DNA from: Holophagaceae bacterium
GTDB taxonomy: Bacteria; Acidobacteriota; Holophagae; Holophagales; Holophagaceae
Direction: 5' to 3'
DNA length: 64,000 nucleotides
Assembly (NCBI GenBank): GCA_025363715.1
Contig: JANYLR010000031.1
Span: 19,380 to 83,379 of the forward strand
In this document: piece after piece, positions 15,651-27,882 of the stretch
Numbering within the stretch: the stretch's first letter is position 1
Layout of the letters: every line of letters begins with the position of its first letter
The notes under the pieces: model-generated
Seen by the model: only the letters and a program-made list of their open reading frames with translations
Database searches by the model: none
Told to the model about the DNA's origin: nothing
Made by a program: the position numbers and the translations under genes

Positions 15651-15727
15651 CGGAGCGTGGCGCAGCCTGGTAGCGCACCTGCTTTGGGAGCAGGGGGTCA
15701 AGAGTTCGAATCTCTTCGCTCCGACCA
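15651..15727 (+). tRNA. tRNA-Pro (TGG)
   Basis: CGGAGCG/CGCTCCG acceptor stem, anticodon loop TTTGGGA, T-arm AAGAGTTCGAATCTCTT, encoded CCA. Confidence 0.95.
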
Positions 15728-15766
15728 ATGACAAAAGGGGGGTGCAACGCACCCCCCTTTTGTCAT
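15728..15766. terminator. Perfect 18-bp hairpin immediately after tRNA-Pro
   Basis: ATGACAAAAGGGGGGTGC AAC GCACCCCCCTTTTGTCAT. Confidence 0.85.
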
Positions 15767-15771
15767 TGATA

Positions 15772-16065
15772 GAAAGGAGATTCGAACTCTTGAGTGGGAT
15801 CGTGGAGGCGCCACTCTCCACCTGACGCACCCTGCCCCGCAGGGTGCTCCCGCTCGCCAGCTCGCGGAGGTGGAGCCTCTGTGGCGCCGGAACGAGACCG
15901 GGGACGGCGCAGCCGGCCCAGTTCGAATCTCCGCTCCGGTGCGTCGGCGCGGAAGACGGAGAACCGCCCACTTCCGCGCGGCCCAGTTCGAATCTCCATC
16001 CAGATGGATCGAGACCAAATCATGTGAGCAACCCACGCTTGACTTGAGTGGGATGGCGGAGATCT
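15772..16065 (+). repeat. tRNA-associated repeat element downstream of tRNA-Pro (T-arm copies around a conserved core)
   Basis: Inverted T-arm copy GAGATTCGAACTCTT, core GAGTGGGATCGTGGAGGCGC, then two AGTTCGAATCTCC direct copies; core shared with the tRNA-Arg locus. Confidence 0.75.
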
Positions 16066-20975: not shown

Positions 20976-21052
20976 GCGCCCATAGCTCAGGTGGATAGAG
21001 CAGCAGCCTTCTAAGCTGCAGGTCGCTGGTTCGAGTCCAGCTGGGCGCACCA
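20976..21052 (+). tRNA. tRNA-Arg (TCT)
   Basis: GCGCCCA/TGGGCGC acceptor stem, anticodon loop CTTCTAA, T-arm CTGGTTCGAGTCCAG, encoded CCA. Confidence 0.95.
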
Positions 21053-21240
21053 GCCGTGGATCGACGCTCGTTCTGGACTCGAACCAGCGAGTGGGATTGT
21101 GGAGGCGCGACACAAAGTCGCGCCGGAGCAAGACCGGCAGGTGGTGAAGCCAGATGTTGTTCGAGTCCAACTGGGCGCACCAACCTTGGGTCGATGCTCG
21201 TTCTGGACTCGAACCAGCGAGTGGATGGCAGAGCAAGGAG
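21053..21240 (+). repeat. tRNA-associated repeat element downstream of tRNA-Arg
   Basis: Two inverted T-arm copies CTGGACTCGAACCAGCG, core GAGTGGGATTGTGGAGGCGC, and a second tRNA 3' end GTTCGAGTCCAACTGGGCGCACCA. Confidence 0.8.
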
Positions 21241-21654: not shown

Positions 21655-24600
21655 ATGTGCCACATGAGGGACCTGAAGACTAGGTGGTATCCGGGCCTGC
21701 TCGGGATGGTCTTCGGCCTCTTGGCCCTATTGGGATGTGGGGGCAGCAAGGGCTCCTCCGGCGTCAATCAGTACTATGGGAATTACCATCCAACGGGTTG
21801 GATGACGATCCATGGCGGACAGGCGGTCGCAGGCGTGGACGCCTGCAAGAAGTGCCACGAAATCTCCCTGATCAAGGTGGGCGCGGGCGTTCCGACCTGC
21901 ATGACCACGGGGTGCCATCACCAGGGCACGCCGGGGTACGCGGACGCGGCCATCCACGGCCCGCTGGCCAAGTCGGCCAGGACCTCCCCGTCCGGTGGAG
22001 GACTGATCTCCTGCCAGATCTGTCATGGTGATGACTTCACCGGCGGCGCTTCCGTCAAGGCCTGCGCCGCCTGCCATGGCGTGAGTGCCCCGCATCCGCA
22101 CAAGCCCTGGCGCATCGCAGTCGGTTCCACCTGGACCCACGTCAACACCGACCCTTCCAATGCCGCCGCCTGTGCGCAGTGCCATTACCCCGGTTCGCCC
22201 AACAACCCGGCCCTGCATCCACTCACACCCGCCCCTGCGGGAACCCAGCCGGGCTGCTTCAACCTGACCCTCTGCCACGGTGCCAATGCGGCTCCGCATC
22301 CCGTGCCGTTCTTGGCCGGCATGACCGATTCCAAGCTGAACGGCCACTTCACGGTCACCGCCTCGGCCTTCGCCTCGGACTGCGCGACCTGTCACGCCTA
22401 CACCGGGGTCTCACCGACCACCTCCGCGCCCCTTTGCGAGGTCTGCCATCAATTGGCTGATCCCACGCTGCCCGGCACCCTTGCCGGAACCTGCCTCTCC
22501 TGTCATGCCGGAACCAGTGGTCTGCCGAAGGGGCCTGGTGGGACGGGCTTCCCCAGCATCGCCGGAGCCCATGCCAAGCACATGTCCCTGGCGACGGGGC
22601 TGACCTGCAATACCTGCCACGCCGGCAGCGGCAGCGGCACCGCCACCCACTATGACAATGCGAATGCCCGGATCTACGATCTCGCCGGTCCCGGCAGCGT
22701 GTCCGTGGATGCCCTGTACAAAGCGAAGACTGGCGGAACCCCGGCCTTCAACCTGTCCGCCCTGACCTGCTCCAACATCAGCTGCCACGGCGGCCAGGTG
22801 ACGCCCAGCTGGGAATTCGGCACGATCAACAGCAGCACCCAGTGCACGGCCTGCCACGCTGTGGCCAGCACGGCGGGAACGAGTACCCAGTACAACGATG
22901 CCTTTGGTCGCCACAGCCTCGGCTCGCACGATGCTACGAATTCCACGAATAATATCGCCTGCACCACCTGCCACAACATGGGCAACGGCTCACCCGGGGC
23001 CCTGGCCCACTTCAAGTACCTGAACACCACCGCCGTGGATGGCGCCGCGACGGGGACCCCCGTGGATCAGATGCCCAGCGGCACCATCGCCTTCAACCCA
23101 GCCATCGTCACGGGTGGCACCTATACGGTGACGAGCGCCTCCCAGGGTAGCGGCACCTGCGCCCTGACCTGCCACACCCACGTCCATACCAATGCCGTGA
23201 ACGATTGGACCTCCATCGGCGTGCCCCACCCCATCCCGTTCCTTACGGGTCAGCTGGACACCCAGGGCAATGGCCATCTGATCGCCACGGCCGCCATTTT
23301 CGCGGCGGACTGCAGCACTTGCCACGCCTATTCGGGAACCTCGCCGAACCCGGCGTCCCCCCTCTGCTCGGTCTGTCATCTCCTCGCCAATCCCACCGTG
23401 GTCGCCACGGGGACCGGGACCTGCCTGTCCTGCCATGTGGGTCCATCCGGTCTGCCGAAAGGACCTGCGGGTACCGTGTTCCCCAGCATCCCCGGGTCCC
23501 ACGCCAAGCACCTGAACCTGCCCACGACCTTGACCTGTAATACCTGCCATGCCGGCAGCGGCACGGGCACGGCCACCCATTACACGAATGCCAACACCCG
23601 GCTCGGGTCCATCTCGGGACCTGCCACCGTATCGATGGATGTTCTGTACAAGGCCAAGACTGGAGCCAATCCCACCTTCACCAGTGCCTCGCTCACCTGC
23701 TCCAACGTCAGCTGCCACGGCGGCCAGGCCACCCCCGGCTGGCAGGTCGGCACCCTCAATAGCGCCACCCAGTGCACAGCCTGCCACGGAGTGGCGAGCT
23801 CGGCTGGAACGAGCACCCAGTACAACGACGCCTTCGGCCGCCATAGCATCGGCACGCACAACGCTACGAACGCTGCCAATGCCATCGCCTGCACCACCTG
23901 CCACAACATGGCCAATGGTTCGGCGGGGGCCCTGGCCCACTTCAAGTACCTGAACACATCGGCCGTGGATGCGGTCGCCACGGGCCTGCCGGCGGACCAG
24001 ATGCCCAGCGGCACCATCGCCTTCAATCCGGCCATCGTCACGGGTGGCACCTACACGGTCACCAGCGCCACCCAGGGCAACGGTGGCTGTGCCCTGACCT
24101 GCCACACCCACATCCATGTCGCCACGGTGGAGACCTGGACCGCCAGCGGCGCGCCGCATGCCATACCGTTTCTATCGGGCCAGACAGACACCCAGGGCAA
24201 TGGCCACCTGAACGCCACCGCGGCCATCCTCACCGCCGACTGTGGCATCTGCCACGCCTACTCGGGCACCTCCCCCATGGCCGCGGCGCCGCTCTGCAAC
24301 GTCTGCCACAAGCTGGCCGACCCCACCGTCGCCGGTACCAATACGGGAACCTGCCTCTCCTGCCATGCCGGCACCAGTGGCATGCCGAAGGGACCGGGGG
24401 GGACGGCCTTCCCCAGCCTGGCGGGCGCTCACCTGAAGCACATGAACCTGGGCACCGTCCTGACCTGCGATACCTGCCACGCGGGCAGCGGCACCGGGAC
24501 CAACACCCACTACACCAATGCCAACGCGCGGATTGGAATCCCCCCGGGGCCAGCCCCCGTGGTGATCAGTGCCACCTTCAATGCCAAGAGCGGCAGCGCA

Positions 24601-27600
24601 ACCTTCACACCGGCCTCCCTGACCTGCTCCAGTGTGAGCTGCCATGGCGGCCAGGCGGCCCCCAGCTGGCAGACCGGCACCATCGCCAGCGCCACCCAGT
24701 GCACGGCCTGCCATGGCGTAGTCGCATCCGCCGCCACCACCACCCAGTTCAATGACGCCTTCGGCCGCCACAGCCTCGGCACTCACAACGCCACCAATGC
24801 GGCCAACGCTATCGCCTGCACCACCTGCCACAATATGGGTAATGGCTCACCCGGCGCCCTGGCCCACTTCAAGTACCTGAATACCCCGGCCGTGGATGCG
24901 GTTGCCACGGGCCTGCCCGCGGACCAGCTGCCCAGCGGCACCATCGCCTTCAACCCGGCCATCGTGACGGGGGCGGGGACCTATACGGTGACCAGCGCCA
25001 CCCAGGGCAACGGCGGCTGTGCCCTGACCTGCCATACCCACATCCACACCGCGGCCGTGAACGACTGGACCTCCATCGGCGTGCCCCATCCCATCCCCTT
25101 CCTGACCGGCCAGACCGACACCCAGGGCAACGGGCACCTGAACATCACGGCCGCCAAGTTCACCGCGGACTGCGCCAACTGCCACGCCTACTCAGGCGCG
25201 TCTCCCATCGCTTCGGCCCCCCTCTGCTCCGCCTGCCATGCCCTGGCCAACCCCACGGTGGTCGCGACAGGCACGGGCACCTGCCTGTCCTGCCATGCGG
25301 GTCCTTCCGGCCTGCCCAAGGGACCCACCGGTACCGTTTTCCCGAACATCGCCGGTTCCCACGCGAAGCACATGAACCTGGCCACGGCCACGACCTGCGA
25401 CGCCTGCCATGCCGGCAGCGGCAGCGGCACCGCCACCCACTACTCGAACGCCAATGCCCGGATCGGAACCCCAGTGGGGCCGGCCTCCGTCTCCATCGAC
25501 TTCCAGTACAAGGCCAAGACCGGCGGCAACCCCACCTTCACAGACGCCACGCTCACCTGCTCGAACGTGAGCTGTCACGGCGGCCAGGCGACCCCCGGCT
25601 GGCAGGTGGGCACCCTCAACAGCGCGACCCAGTGCACGGCCTGCCACGGGGTGGGCGCCTCGGCGGCGACTACCGCGCAATATAACGATGCCTTCGGCCG
25701 GCACAGCCTCGGGACGCACAACGCCACGAATGCCGCCAACGCCATCGCCTGCACCACCTGCCACAACATGGCCAATGGTTCACCGGGCGCCCTGGCCCAC
25801 TTCAAGTACCTCAATACCAGCGCCGTGGATGGCGTGTCCTCGGGCCTGCCCGCCGACCAAATGCCCAGCGGCACCATCGCTTTCAATCCCGCCATCGTCA
25901 CCGCCGGGACCTACACCGTGACGAGCGTGACCCAGGGCAACGGCGGCTGTGCCCTCACCTGCCACACCCATATCCACGTCGCCACCATTGATACCTGGAC
26001 AGCCTCTGGCGCGCCCCATCCCATCCCCTTCTACGCCGGCCAGACCGATACCCAGGGCAATGGCCACCTGACCGCCACCGCGGCCACCTTCAGCGCCGCC
26101 TGCACCACCTGTCATGCCTACACCGGGACGTCTCCGCTCATCACGGCGCCCCTCTGCTCTGTCTGCCACACCCTGGCCAACCCCACCCTGGTCGCCACGG
26201 GTGTCGGCACCTGCCTGTCCTGCCATGTGGGGGCCTCCGGTCTGCCGGCGGGACCCACGGGAGCCAGCTTCCCAAGCATCGCTGGGGCCCACCCTGTCCA
26301 CATGGGCCTGCCCACCACCCTGACCTGCAATAGCTGCCATGCCAACGTCGGCACGGGCACCACCACCCACTACAACAGTGCCAATGCCCGGGTCACCCCG
26401 CCGACGGGGCCCGTGGCCATGAGCATCGATGCGGCTTTCCAGGCCCAGAGCGGGAATCCGGTCGGCTTCAATGGCTCCTCCCTCACCTGCTCCAGTACCA
26501 GCTGCCACGGCGGCCTGGTCACCCCCAACTGGCAGACCGGCACCATCGCCGCCACCACGCAATGCACCCTCTGCCATGCCATCAACAACGGGACCACGCC
26601 TTCCCAGTACAACGACGCCATCGGGCGCCATGCCTGGGGCACCCACTCCACGGCGGGCAGCCTGGACTGCACCTTCTGCCATGACATGACACTGGCCACC
26701 GCCGGTGCCCAGAAGCACTTCGCAGAGCTGAATACCACGGCCGTCAGCAGCACCAACAAGCTGCCCAGCACCACCATCAAGTTCAAGCTCGGCAATGCCA
26801 CTTATCCCATCACCGGGGCCGCCACCTACACCATCAATGCGACCTTCCCCGAAGGGGATGGTGGCTGCGCCCTCACCTGCCACAGCCAGGTCCACACGGA
26901 CGCCAACAACCACTGGAACATGCCCAAGGGCTCCGGAGTGGCGCACCCGGTGCCGTTCTTGACTACGGACCTCAGCACCGGAGGGAATACCCACCAGACC
27001 CTCACCCTCGCCCAGTTCAATGGCGAATGCGCCACCTGTCACGACCTTGGCGGCGTCTCCAGCAAGACCGGTCCCACCTGCAACGTCTGCCACACCCTGG
27101 CGGATCCCACGGCCGTCACCACCGGGGCTGGCACCTGCCTGTCCTGCCATGTGGGCGCCGCCTTCAAGACCCAGGGTCCCACGGGTTCCGCATGGCCGAA
27201 CCTGCAGGGCGCCCACCCGACGCACCTCTCCCTGCTGACCTTCACCCGGGCCACGCCGCCTCTGCCGGCCACGATGACCGCTTCGGTATGCGAGGCCTGC
27301 CACGTGGGCTCGGTGCCCGGGGACTCGGCCAATACCCACTACAGCAATGCCAATAAGCGCCTGGCCAGTCCCAAACTGTCCGGCCCCGGCACAGTGTCTA
27401 TCGTTCCCACGTTCAATGCCCAGTCTGGAACGGCGGGAACCACGGTGAGCGCCTCCGCCTTCACCTGCTCCAACATCTCCTGCCATGGCGGACAGACCAC
27501 CCCCGGTTGGCAGAGCGGAACTCTCACACCGAATGCCACCACCTACTGCATCGCCTGCCACAAGATCGCTACGACGGCCACCCAGTACAACGACGCCACG

Positions 27601-27882
27601 GGCCGCCACAACAATCCGGGCGCCCACAACACCACCTGCGACTACTGCCACGACATGACCCAGGCCAAGCAGGGCGCCATCGATCACTGGAAGTACCTGG
27701 ATACCTCAGCCGTCCGCATCACCCCGGACCAGCTGTCCAGCGATACCATCAAGTTCGGTGGAGGCGCCCAGCCCGCGACCGGAGCACTCACTTACACCGT
27801 GAACGTCACCATCGGCCGAGGTGGCTGTGCCCTCAGTTGCCACGGGCAAGGCCATACTGCCAGTGGCAATATCTGGAATTGA
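21655..27882 (+). CDS. Very large multiheme c-type cytochrome lipoprotein (CxxCH/CxxxxCH repeat family)
   Basis: Lipobox-like GLLALLGCGG; by hand count about 40 CX2CH, 7 CX4CH, 6 CX3CH and 1 CX5CH motifs; six ~310-aa repeats. Confidence 0.93.
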   Translation: MCHMRDLKTRWYPGLLGMVFGLLALLGCGGSKGSSGVNQYYGNYHPTGWMTIHGGQAVAGVDACKKCHEISLIKVGAGVPTCMTTGCHHQGTPGYADAAIHGPLAKSARTSPSGGGLISCQICHGDDFTGGASVKACAACHGVSAPHPHKPWRIAVGSTWTHVNTDPSNAAACAQCHYPGSPNNPALHPLTPAPAGTQPGCFNLTLCHGANAAPHPVPFLAGMTDSKLNGHFTVTASAFASDCATCHAYTGVSPTTSAPLCEVCHQLADPTLPGTLAGTCLSCHAGTSGLPKGPGGTGFPSIAGAHAKHMSLATGLTCNTCHAGSGSGTATHYDNANARIYDLAGPGSVSVDALYKAKTGGTPAFNLSALTCSNISCHGGQVTPSWEFGTINSSTQCTACHAVASTAGTSTQYNDAFGRHSLGSHDATNSTNNIACTTCHNMGNGSPGALAHFKYLNTTAVDGAATGTPVDQMPSGTIAFNPAIVTGGTYTVTSASQGSGTCALTCHTHVHTNAVNDWTSIGVPHPIPFLTGQLDTQGNGHLIATAAIFAADCSTCHAYSGTSPNPASPLCSVCHLLANPTVVATGTGTCLSCHVGPSGLPKGPAGTVFPSIPGSHAKHLNLPTTLTCNTCHAGSGTGTATHYTNANTRLGSISGPATVSMDVLYKAKTGANPTFTSASLTCSNVSCHGGQATPGWQVGTLNSATQCTACHGVASSAGTSTQYNDAFGRHSIGTHNATNAANAIACTTCHNMANGSAGALAHFKYLNTSAVDAVATGLPADQMPSGTIAFNPAIVTGGTYTVTSATQGNGGCALTCHTHIHVATVETWTASGAPHAIPFLSGQTDTQGNGHLNATAAILTADCGICHAYSGTSPMAAAPLCNVCHKLADPTVAGTNTGTCLSCHAGTSGMPKGPGGTAFPSLAGAHLKHMNLGTVLTCDTCHAGSGTGTNTHYTNANARIGIPPGPAPVVISATFNAKSGSATFTPASLTCSSVSCHGGQAAPSWQTGTIASATQCTACHGVVASAATTTQFNDAFGRHSLGTHNATNAANAIACTTCHNMGNGSPGALAHFKYLNTPAVDAVATGLPADQLPSGTIAFNPAIVTGAGTYTVTSATQGNGGCALTCHTHIHTAAVNDWTSIGVPHPIPFLTGQTDTQGNGHLNITAAKFTADCANCHAYSGASPIASAPLCSACHALANPTVVATGTGTCLSCHAGPSGLPKGPTGTVFPNIAGSHAKHMNLATATTCDACHAGSGSGTATHYSNANARIGTPVGPASVSIDFQYKAKTGGNPTFTDATLTCSNVSCHGGQATPGWQVGTLNSATQCTACHGVGASAATTAQYNDAFGRHSLGTHNATNAANAIACTTCHNMANGSPGALAHFKYLNTSAVDGVSSGLPADQMPSGTIAFNPAIVTAGTYTVTSVTQGNGGCALTCHTHIHVATIDTWTASGAPHPIPFYAGQTDTQGNGHLTATAATFSAACTTCHAYTGTSPLITAPLCSVCHTLANPTLVATGVGTCLSCHVGASGLPAGPTGASFPSIAGAHPVHMGLPTTLTCNSCHANVGTGTTTHYNSANARVTPPTGPVAMSIDAAFQAQSGNPVGFNGSSLTCSSTSCHGGLVTPNWQTGTIAATTQCTLCHAINNGTTPSQYNDAIGRHAWGTHSTAGSLDCTFCHDMTLATAGAQKHFAELNTTAVSSTNKLPSTTIKFKLGNATYPITGAATYTINATFPEGDGGCALTCHSQVHTDANNHWNMPKGSGVAHPVPFLTTDLSTGGNTHQTLTLAQFNGECATCHDLGGVSSKTGPTCNVCHTLADPTAVTTGAGTCLSCHVGAAFKTQGPTGSAWPNLQGAHPTHLSLLTFTRATPPLPATMTASVCEACHVGSVPGDSANTHYSNANKRLASPKLSGPGTVSIVPTFNAQSGTAGTTVSASAFTCSNISCHGGQTTPGWQSGTLTPNATTYCIACHKIATTATQYNDATGRHNNPGAHNTTCDYCHDMTQAKQGAIDHWKYLDTSAVRITPDQLSSDTIKFGGGAQPATGALTYTVNVTIGRGGCALSCHGQGHTASGNIWN

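Follow-up and report, generated by a model that had tools for sequence, protein, structure and literature searches.

A tRNA-Arg(tct) gene is found at positions 20976-21052 (+ strand; ARAGORN; Rfam RF00005, 71.1 bits) of the 64,000-nt stretch of DNA analysed here (the window), and it is followed by a series of partial copies of its own T-arm. The T-arm segment TCGCTGGTTCGAGTCCAG (21023-21040, +; tRNA positions 47-64) is the source of two exact 18-nt inverted copies, located at 21073-21090 and 21203-21220 (+). The trailer that separates the CCA end from the first of them (21053-21072, +) contains no terminator and resembles the spacer after a second tRNA-Arg 3' end, which extends from the T-loop to the CCA at 21159-21182 (+). 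An RNA element, which we call class A, spans 21073-21168 (+; covariance model, 76.8 bits, E 3e-18; minimum free energy (MFE) fold) and comprises four helices, P1-P4. P1 is made of nucleotides 21075-21084 of the inverted copy, as the 5' strand, and of the initial 10 nt of the second tRNA 3' end, as the 3' strand; P2 (UUGU, 21097-21100, and GCAA, 21128-21131) encloses P3 (21104-21111 and 21117-21124) within 21097-21131 (+), and P4 is a hairpin at 21136-21158 (+), as indicated by both covariation and the MFE fold. Behind the second inverted copy the core has decayed (13.4 bits, not significant). Overall, the locus contains a 66-nt direct repeat (92% identity), the two copies of which start at 21029 and 21159, 130 nt apart, with each block spanning T-loop, CCA, trailer and inverted arm. 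Thus, the initial annotation, which described a tRNA-Arg with inverted and direct copies of its own arm around a core, was correct in both layout and coordinates.

The same annotation reported that the core recurs behind a tRNA-Pro and, indeed, GAGTGGGATYGTGGAGGCGC is present with 0 mismatches at 21089 (Arg) and at 15792, the chance expectation being 0.02 for the window. The host of this second element is tRNA-Pro(tgg) (15651-15727, +; ARAGORN); a perfect 20-bp palindrome with a T-run, resembling a terminator (15726-15768, +), separates it from the class A element at 15776-15930 (+; 72.9 bits, E 4e-17), the P3 of which has an additional branched hairpin at about 15816-15876. The inverted arm (15777-15793, +; 17 nt, exact) is distinct from that of the Arg locus and mirrors the T-arm of tRNA-Pro(tgg) itself, including its unusual AAGAG stem. 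A direct copy of the T-loop/T-stem provides the 3' strand of P1 (15920-15931, +) and is found again at 15985-15996, while the start of a decayed second core, CTTGAGTGGGATGGCGGAG, lies at 16043-16061 (+). When the search was extended to the whole genome (3.43 Mb, 84% complete), one more near-exact copy of the core, the third, was found after tRNA-Pro(ggg), with an inverted arm that likewise matches the T-arm of tRNA-Pro(ggg). At the two Pro loci the element is preceded by a distinct, perfect terminator palindrome.

In the window (15816-15876) and at L044, L051, L055 and L107, the loop of P3 contains another branched palindromic repeat, CTCCRCCTGACGC...GCGGAGGYGGAG, which is apparently an independent repeat family.

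Both window copies, when folded alone, yield P1-P4 as the MFE structure. P1 pairs the inverted with the direct arm, P2 corresponds to UYGY/RCRA and is flanked by G-A/A-G oppositions (GGGAUCGC / GCGAGACC), and P3 has been repeatedly rewritten with full complementarity (GCGCCAC, ACAGCGC, GCCCTCC and GCAGGAC, among others). For P1, P2 and P4 of 49 class A copies, 90.4% of the cells were paired, to be compared with 85.8% in shuffled and 27-38% in slid controls. A larger alignment was obtained from 126 matches to the covariance model, 120 of which are distinct: two-sided changes were found in 23 of the 28 pairs, 94.7% of the cells were paired, cells with two-sided changes numbered 551 as opposed to 174 in the shuffles, and the covariation score was 0.44 versus 0.17, counts that are not independent, the alignment having been fitted to the structure and the tandem copies being related, but with slid controls (31-40% paired) that stay far below. 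On the + strand the oppositions are G:U in 63 and A:C in 19 cases, so that the folded strand is the tRNA strand, a result that applies equally to RNA and to single-stranded DNA. From these alignments, the class A core is taken to be a conserved four-helix structured RNA on the tRNA strand. The initial annotation would have been refuted by a core absent from other tRNA flanks and devoid of covariation; the core is found at many such flanks and its covariation is strong.

The coupling of the element to its host tRNA is documented by the inverted arm. At 69 of the 105 loci with an inverted arm, the best fit was with the tRNA that precedes it over all 42 other tRNA types, and most of the remaining loci gave ties with one or two other types, as expected since isoacceptors share the arm. 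Deviations from perfect complementarity are mainly of the wobble-keeping type (73 versus 9 wobble-breaking transitions; sign-test p about 1e-13, a value that is overstated because the loci are related). For orthologous tRNA-Arg(tct) genes that differ at one base of the T-stem or acceptor, the letter found in the arm is the one that fits its own gene in 14 of 15 cases. The arm starts directly after the CCA at several Arg loci and continues through the acceptor strand (28 nt at L287), so that the tRNA 3' half and its copy form one long palindrome; some loci, such as L295, contain the inverted arm alone, with no core. In joint folds of tRNA and element, pairing of the inverted arm with the T-arm is predicted to gain 13 kcal/mol at both window loci. 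Thus, the antisense arm would be able to pair with either the T-arm of the tRNA or its own 3' strand in P1.

The genome-wide extent of the pattern, the existence of further core classes behind other tRNAs and the lack of an element at tRNA-His had been overlooked in the initial annotation. All tRNA 3' flanks were scanned in the source genome, in G033 (same genus, complete) and in G066 (another Holophagaceae genus, complete), and inverted copies of the own arm were found after about 9 of 28, 9 of 46 and 4 of 45 tRNAs, respectively, the 3' end of the tRNA being copied in direct orientation further downstream. The tRNA-His of the 64,000-nt window has no such element behind it; that of G033 has one. 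Besides class A, which is the core at the Arg and Pro loci of the window, several other classes exist. The class B core (GAGAAGCAGYGGCGGCCCG...) is found behind Val and Met, and behind Arg in other genomes, the class X core (GTGGCAGCCGCCCGATGAGCGCC...) behind fMet, and classes C and D, with half or full inverted arm, multi-hairpin cores and a direct copy reaching the CCA, behind Phe, Gln, Ser, Asn and Pro.

Geothrix, a soil and sediment bacterium, is where most class A elements were found. Pattern GAGTGGGATYGYGGAG is present in 32 of 78 Holophagaceae genomes, belonging to two genera (reversed-pattern control, 0), and a stricter core pattern retrieved 33 stretches from the named GTDB collection, all from Geothrix or from Holophagaceae/Acidobacteria metagenome-assembled genomes. 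With the class A covariance model R1, matches were obtained in 27 of 396 sampled Acidobacteriota genomes, namely 25 of the 26 Geothrix genomes and two genomes from other Holophagaceae, each of a different genus, and class A was absent from the remaining Acidobacteriota of this sample. A deeper search in nine genomes gave 1-14 copies per genome where the element is present. All inspected class A matches, matches at contig edges (L047/L096, L053, L054, L061) having been left out, are preceded either by a displaced tRNA 3' fragment, for example of Thr(cgt), Arg(ccg), Pro(tgg) or Pro(ggg), or by a complete tRNA of the same orientation. Four matches to the covariance model that seemed to have no tRNA upstream actually follow displaced tRNA 3' fragments. 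In G054 one class A copy lies within a tRNA cluster, between tRNA-Pro and tRNA-Gly. The core pattern also gave 32 single matches in viral contigs, none of which is supported by the covariance model as a real element. A scan of the window with Rfam and a permissive scan of six related loci returned only tRNAs and chance matches, and a literature search on tRNA-flanking repeats of this type found nothing beyond mentions of RtT. At the end of a contig of the source assembly (L012 / G000:C57), tRNA-Asp(gtc) is doubled head to head in a 63-nt inverted repeat, which is probably an assembly artefact.

Insertion of the units at the T-arm is documented by comparing tRNA-fMet loci. In G032 (L160) the tRNA is followed by two units, and the old trailer is found at +357 to +444, directly behind the last displaced 3' end; at the emptier locus L161 the same trailer (77 of 92 positions identical) lies at +3 to +94 of tRNA-fMet. 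The same displacement can be recognized, more weakly, in G006 (L164). Thus, the units were inserted between the T-arm and the old trailer, bringing with them a restored 3' end and a new, terminator-bearing trailer. As expected of a tRNA-targeting element, the tRNA was restored and its 3' end and trailer were displaced. The ‘emptier’ fMet loci contain a decayed inverted arm further down, and are therefore layers rather than pristine empty sites. No integrase or transposase was found inside the units, the approximately 120-250 bp of which leave no room for a gene. Tandem arrays are common (class A period, 122-158 bp) and units that are once present gain and lose copies in tandem.

Larger mobile elements have been encountered at the same places. 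At L354 (G033:C1:3090300-3107400) a Mu-like transposable prophage of approximately 16 kb lies inside a class A core behind tRNA-Pro(ggg); it encodes a MuA-like protein (rve and Mu-transpos_C), a TniB-like ATPase, a CI-like S24 repressor and a tail protein. In both G033 and G054, class A cores that follow tRNA-Pro(cgg) are broken by near-identical prophage left ends (TGTGGGGAG...; L115, L111), as if class A elements were preferred landing sites of this Mu-like prophage. A genus-wide search also revealed tRNA-fMet fragments, corresponding to positions 28-77 or 33-77, scattered through many Geothrix genomes, which point to islands integrating in the anticodon region.

RtT RNA is a long-standing oddity of E. 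coli, the role of which has been unclear for decades. The initial annotation cited E. coli tyrT as a loose precedent: the precedent is appropriate, but ‘loose’ understates it, since the same layout of inverted arm, core and direct 3' end is found there, also in a Pro-matched form at tRNA-Pro. The tyrT/tyrV loci contain 3-4 RtT units with the order GGGGAAGGAT (inverted) ... core ... AATCCTTCCCCCACCACCA (direct), and the stem formed by these inverted and direct arms is part of the Rfam RtT consensus (RF00391). RtT also occurs behind a tRNA-Pro (proK) in other E. coli strains, with Pro-matched ends, GAGGATGAGAACCTCCG ... GGAGGTTCGA-core-AATCCTCTATCACCGACCA, in 0, 1 or 2 units of 168 bp depending on the strain. 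Thus, the ends of E. coli RtT match Tyr at tyrT and Pro at proK, and the rule of a host-matched closing stem holds for RtT as well. Both RtT (rttR, tyrT operon) and the elements described here lie 3' of tRNA genes on the same strand, are organized in tandem units that end in the host tRNA 3' end with its CCA (in the Geothrix-type units the copy reaches the CCA in some cases and is only about 10 nt long in others) and have a closing stem derived from inverted and direct host-tRNA arm. However, core sequence and helix layout of RtT differ from those of class A, E. coli RtT keeps a direct left half of the T-arm ahead of the core, and the Geothrix elements fall into many core classes and use a much larger set of host tRNAs. 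With the RtT model (RF00391, cut-off 45 bits) nothing scored above the cut-off in the window or in 94 genomes of the class (best score, 29.5 bits) and, conversely, model R1 gave no match up to E=1 in the E. coli RtT loci L270, L281, L282 and L315. By taking into account that position, 3'-end copies and stem are shared while model score and core homology are not, the elements are best described as an RtT-like variant rather than as RtT.

Weak matches resembling the RtT core (at best E 0.0015, 29.5 bits) are found in Geothrix, but they lie where nuoD ends and are not associated with a tRNA (L271-L273, L276). At L271, a 13-nt inverted copy of the upstream part of the nuoD end, a core and a 25-nt direct copy of the nuoD end follow each other, which is the tRNA-type layout at a protein gene.

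RtT relatives have been observed by Northern blot in Actinobacillus (PMC4986893) and are listed as expressed in Thioalkalivibrio (PMC8092127), while RtT-like sequences in enterobacterial BIMEs have been proposed to be attenuators (PMC2965389). According to the accounts given in these papers, the tyrT transcript gives rise to a released rtT RNA, which has been linked to the stringent response (Bosl and Kersten 1991, via PMC4986893/PMC8092127/PMC2965389). With REP/BIME sequences class A elements share the fact that they are short, non-coding, palindromic, multi-copy and intergenic, but class A occurs only at the 3' ends of tRNAs, matches the gene that it follows and has a four-helix RNA fold. 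At proK of E. coli O157:H7 FWSEC0004 (L314), a locus with no RtT, a BIME/REP directly follows the inverted arm and left half; this BIME, in the place of the RtT core, is a separate insertion. Islands and satellites that integrate in tRNA genes (attL/attR) also insert at the tRNA 3' end, restore the tRNA and displace its 3' end, whereas class A units are approximately 120-250 bp long, gene-free, provided with inverted arm and structured core, and placed at the T-arm rather than at the anticodon position. Integron attC sites (GTTRRRY / RYYYAAC) do not correspond to the GTTCGAA/GTTCAAA of the units, in which the fourth place is C.

Overall, the elements are probably RtT-like tRNA-trailer RNAs, made by run-on transcription from the tRNA, with an antisense arm that can pair in two ways, semi-selfish, and perhaps tuning tRNA maturation. 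The strongest competitor, although clearly the less probable, is a purely selfish tRNA-targeting repeat, the RNA or single-stranded DNA of which would be the substrate of a transposition or reverse-transcription system, with the T-arm copies as by-products of insertion and no role for the host. The variable presence among Geothrix genomes, the occurrence of several core classes at the same tRNA, the tandem arrays, the T-arm insertion with restored 3' end and the variable unit number (0/1/2) at E. coli proK would all be accounted for, but the units contain no gene, and the way in which the arm tracks substitutions of the host tRNA at orthologous loci fits lasting pairing better than one-time copying. 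Two of the initial guesses, namely a processed small RNA and a tRNA-targeting repeat, are each supported in part. A terminator or decay device, the third guess, is conceivable, but a separate perfect terminator already precedes the element at both Pro loci. In its more general form, namely a terminator, attenuator or tRNA-level switch in which the arm pairs with the nascent T-arm and the long hairpin stops or destabilizes the transcript to limit tRNA output, this explanation is unlikely. At several Arg loci a near-perfect hairpin of up to 28 bp, formed by the tRNA 3' half and its copy, is present with no other terminator, the joint fold is predicted to favour the arm:T-arm hairpin by 13 kcal/mol, and an attenuator role has been proposed for enterobacterial RtT-like sequences (PMC2965389); however, the conserved P2-P4 core and the direct copies would be left unexplained, a terminator is already found ahead of the element at many loci, and arm:T-arm pairing would ruin an essential tRNA.

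It is highly improbable that the elements are neutral palindromes arising from replication template switching at the T-arm and tandem duplication with no selection on the RNA: T-arms are near-palindromic, unit number varies and some loci have the inverted arm only (L295), but compensatory changes are found in P2, P3 and P4, which are unrelated to the tRNA sequence, so that covariation disfavours this reading, as does the 73:9 wobble bias in the arm. Just as hard to sustain is their origin as att-site scars left by genomic islands that tyrosine integrases have inserted into tRNA genes. A restored tRNA with a displaced 3' end does look like attR/attL and islands do use these tRNAs, as seen from displaced fMet (28-77, 33-77), Thr, Arg and Pro fragments; yet the cut made by these islands is in the anticodon region, and the element is carried off intact with the displaced 3' half (L342, L334, L322, L316), the units contain no integrase and the same structured core is found at unrelated tRNAs.

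In the preferred reading of an RtT-like trailer RNA, a unit inserts into the T-arm of a tRNA, bringing a restored 3' end, a new trailer or terminator, the antisense arm and the core, and units then multiply in tandem behind the tRNA. P1 consists of the antisense T-arm copy, as the 5' strand, and of the displaced or duplicated sense copy, as the 3' strand. The RNA would be produced by transcription running on from the tRNA and freed during processing of the tRNA and of the second 3' end with its CCA, in the manner of E. coli rtT RNA. Co-transcription is likely where no terminator intervenes, as at the Arg locus, and in the tRNA-Pro/tRNA-Gly cluster, but the terminator-like palindromes that separate tRNA and element at Pro and fMet loci imply that read-through or a promoter of its own must be assumed there. 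The predicted 13 kcal/mol preference for pairing of inverted arm and T-arm also implies that the pre-tRNA must escape this pairing kinetically. The obvious escape is for the arm to pair with the sense copy further down, P1 formation then sequestering the antisense arm from the tRNA, and this would account for the joint retention of the two copies. The element would function as a tRNA-trailer RNA, carried along by tRNA genes in a semi-selfish way and perhaps also tuning tRNA maturation. A more daring version, which we regard as doubtful, sees the elements as host-programmed switch RNAs, with some RNA-templated rewriting of the arm at new tRNAs: the arm would stay complementary to the preceding tRNA, and the pre-tRNA would fold either as a cloverleaf with a P1-closed element or as a misfold that pairs arm and T-arm. 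If so, tRNA maturation, or the resistance of tRNA genes to invading elements, would depend on a trailer RNA.

The presence in a distant phylum of about 3-14 copies per genome and several core classes turns RtT from an E. coli oddity into a general and testable phenomenon, with a clear rule across cases, by which the 3' end of the host tRNA itself supplies the closing stem. It also raises the questions of how such a module can pass from one tRNA gene to another with its ends rewritten, and of whether an antisense T-arm in the trailer affects tRNA maturation.

Downstream of the Arg locus, starting 435 nt past the second inverted arm, the window encodes a secreted-looking protein of 2075 residues rich in CxxCH (21655-27882, +), which by eye is a very large multiheme cytochrome with internal repeats.
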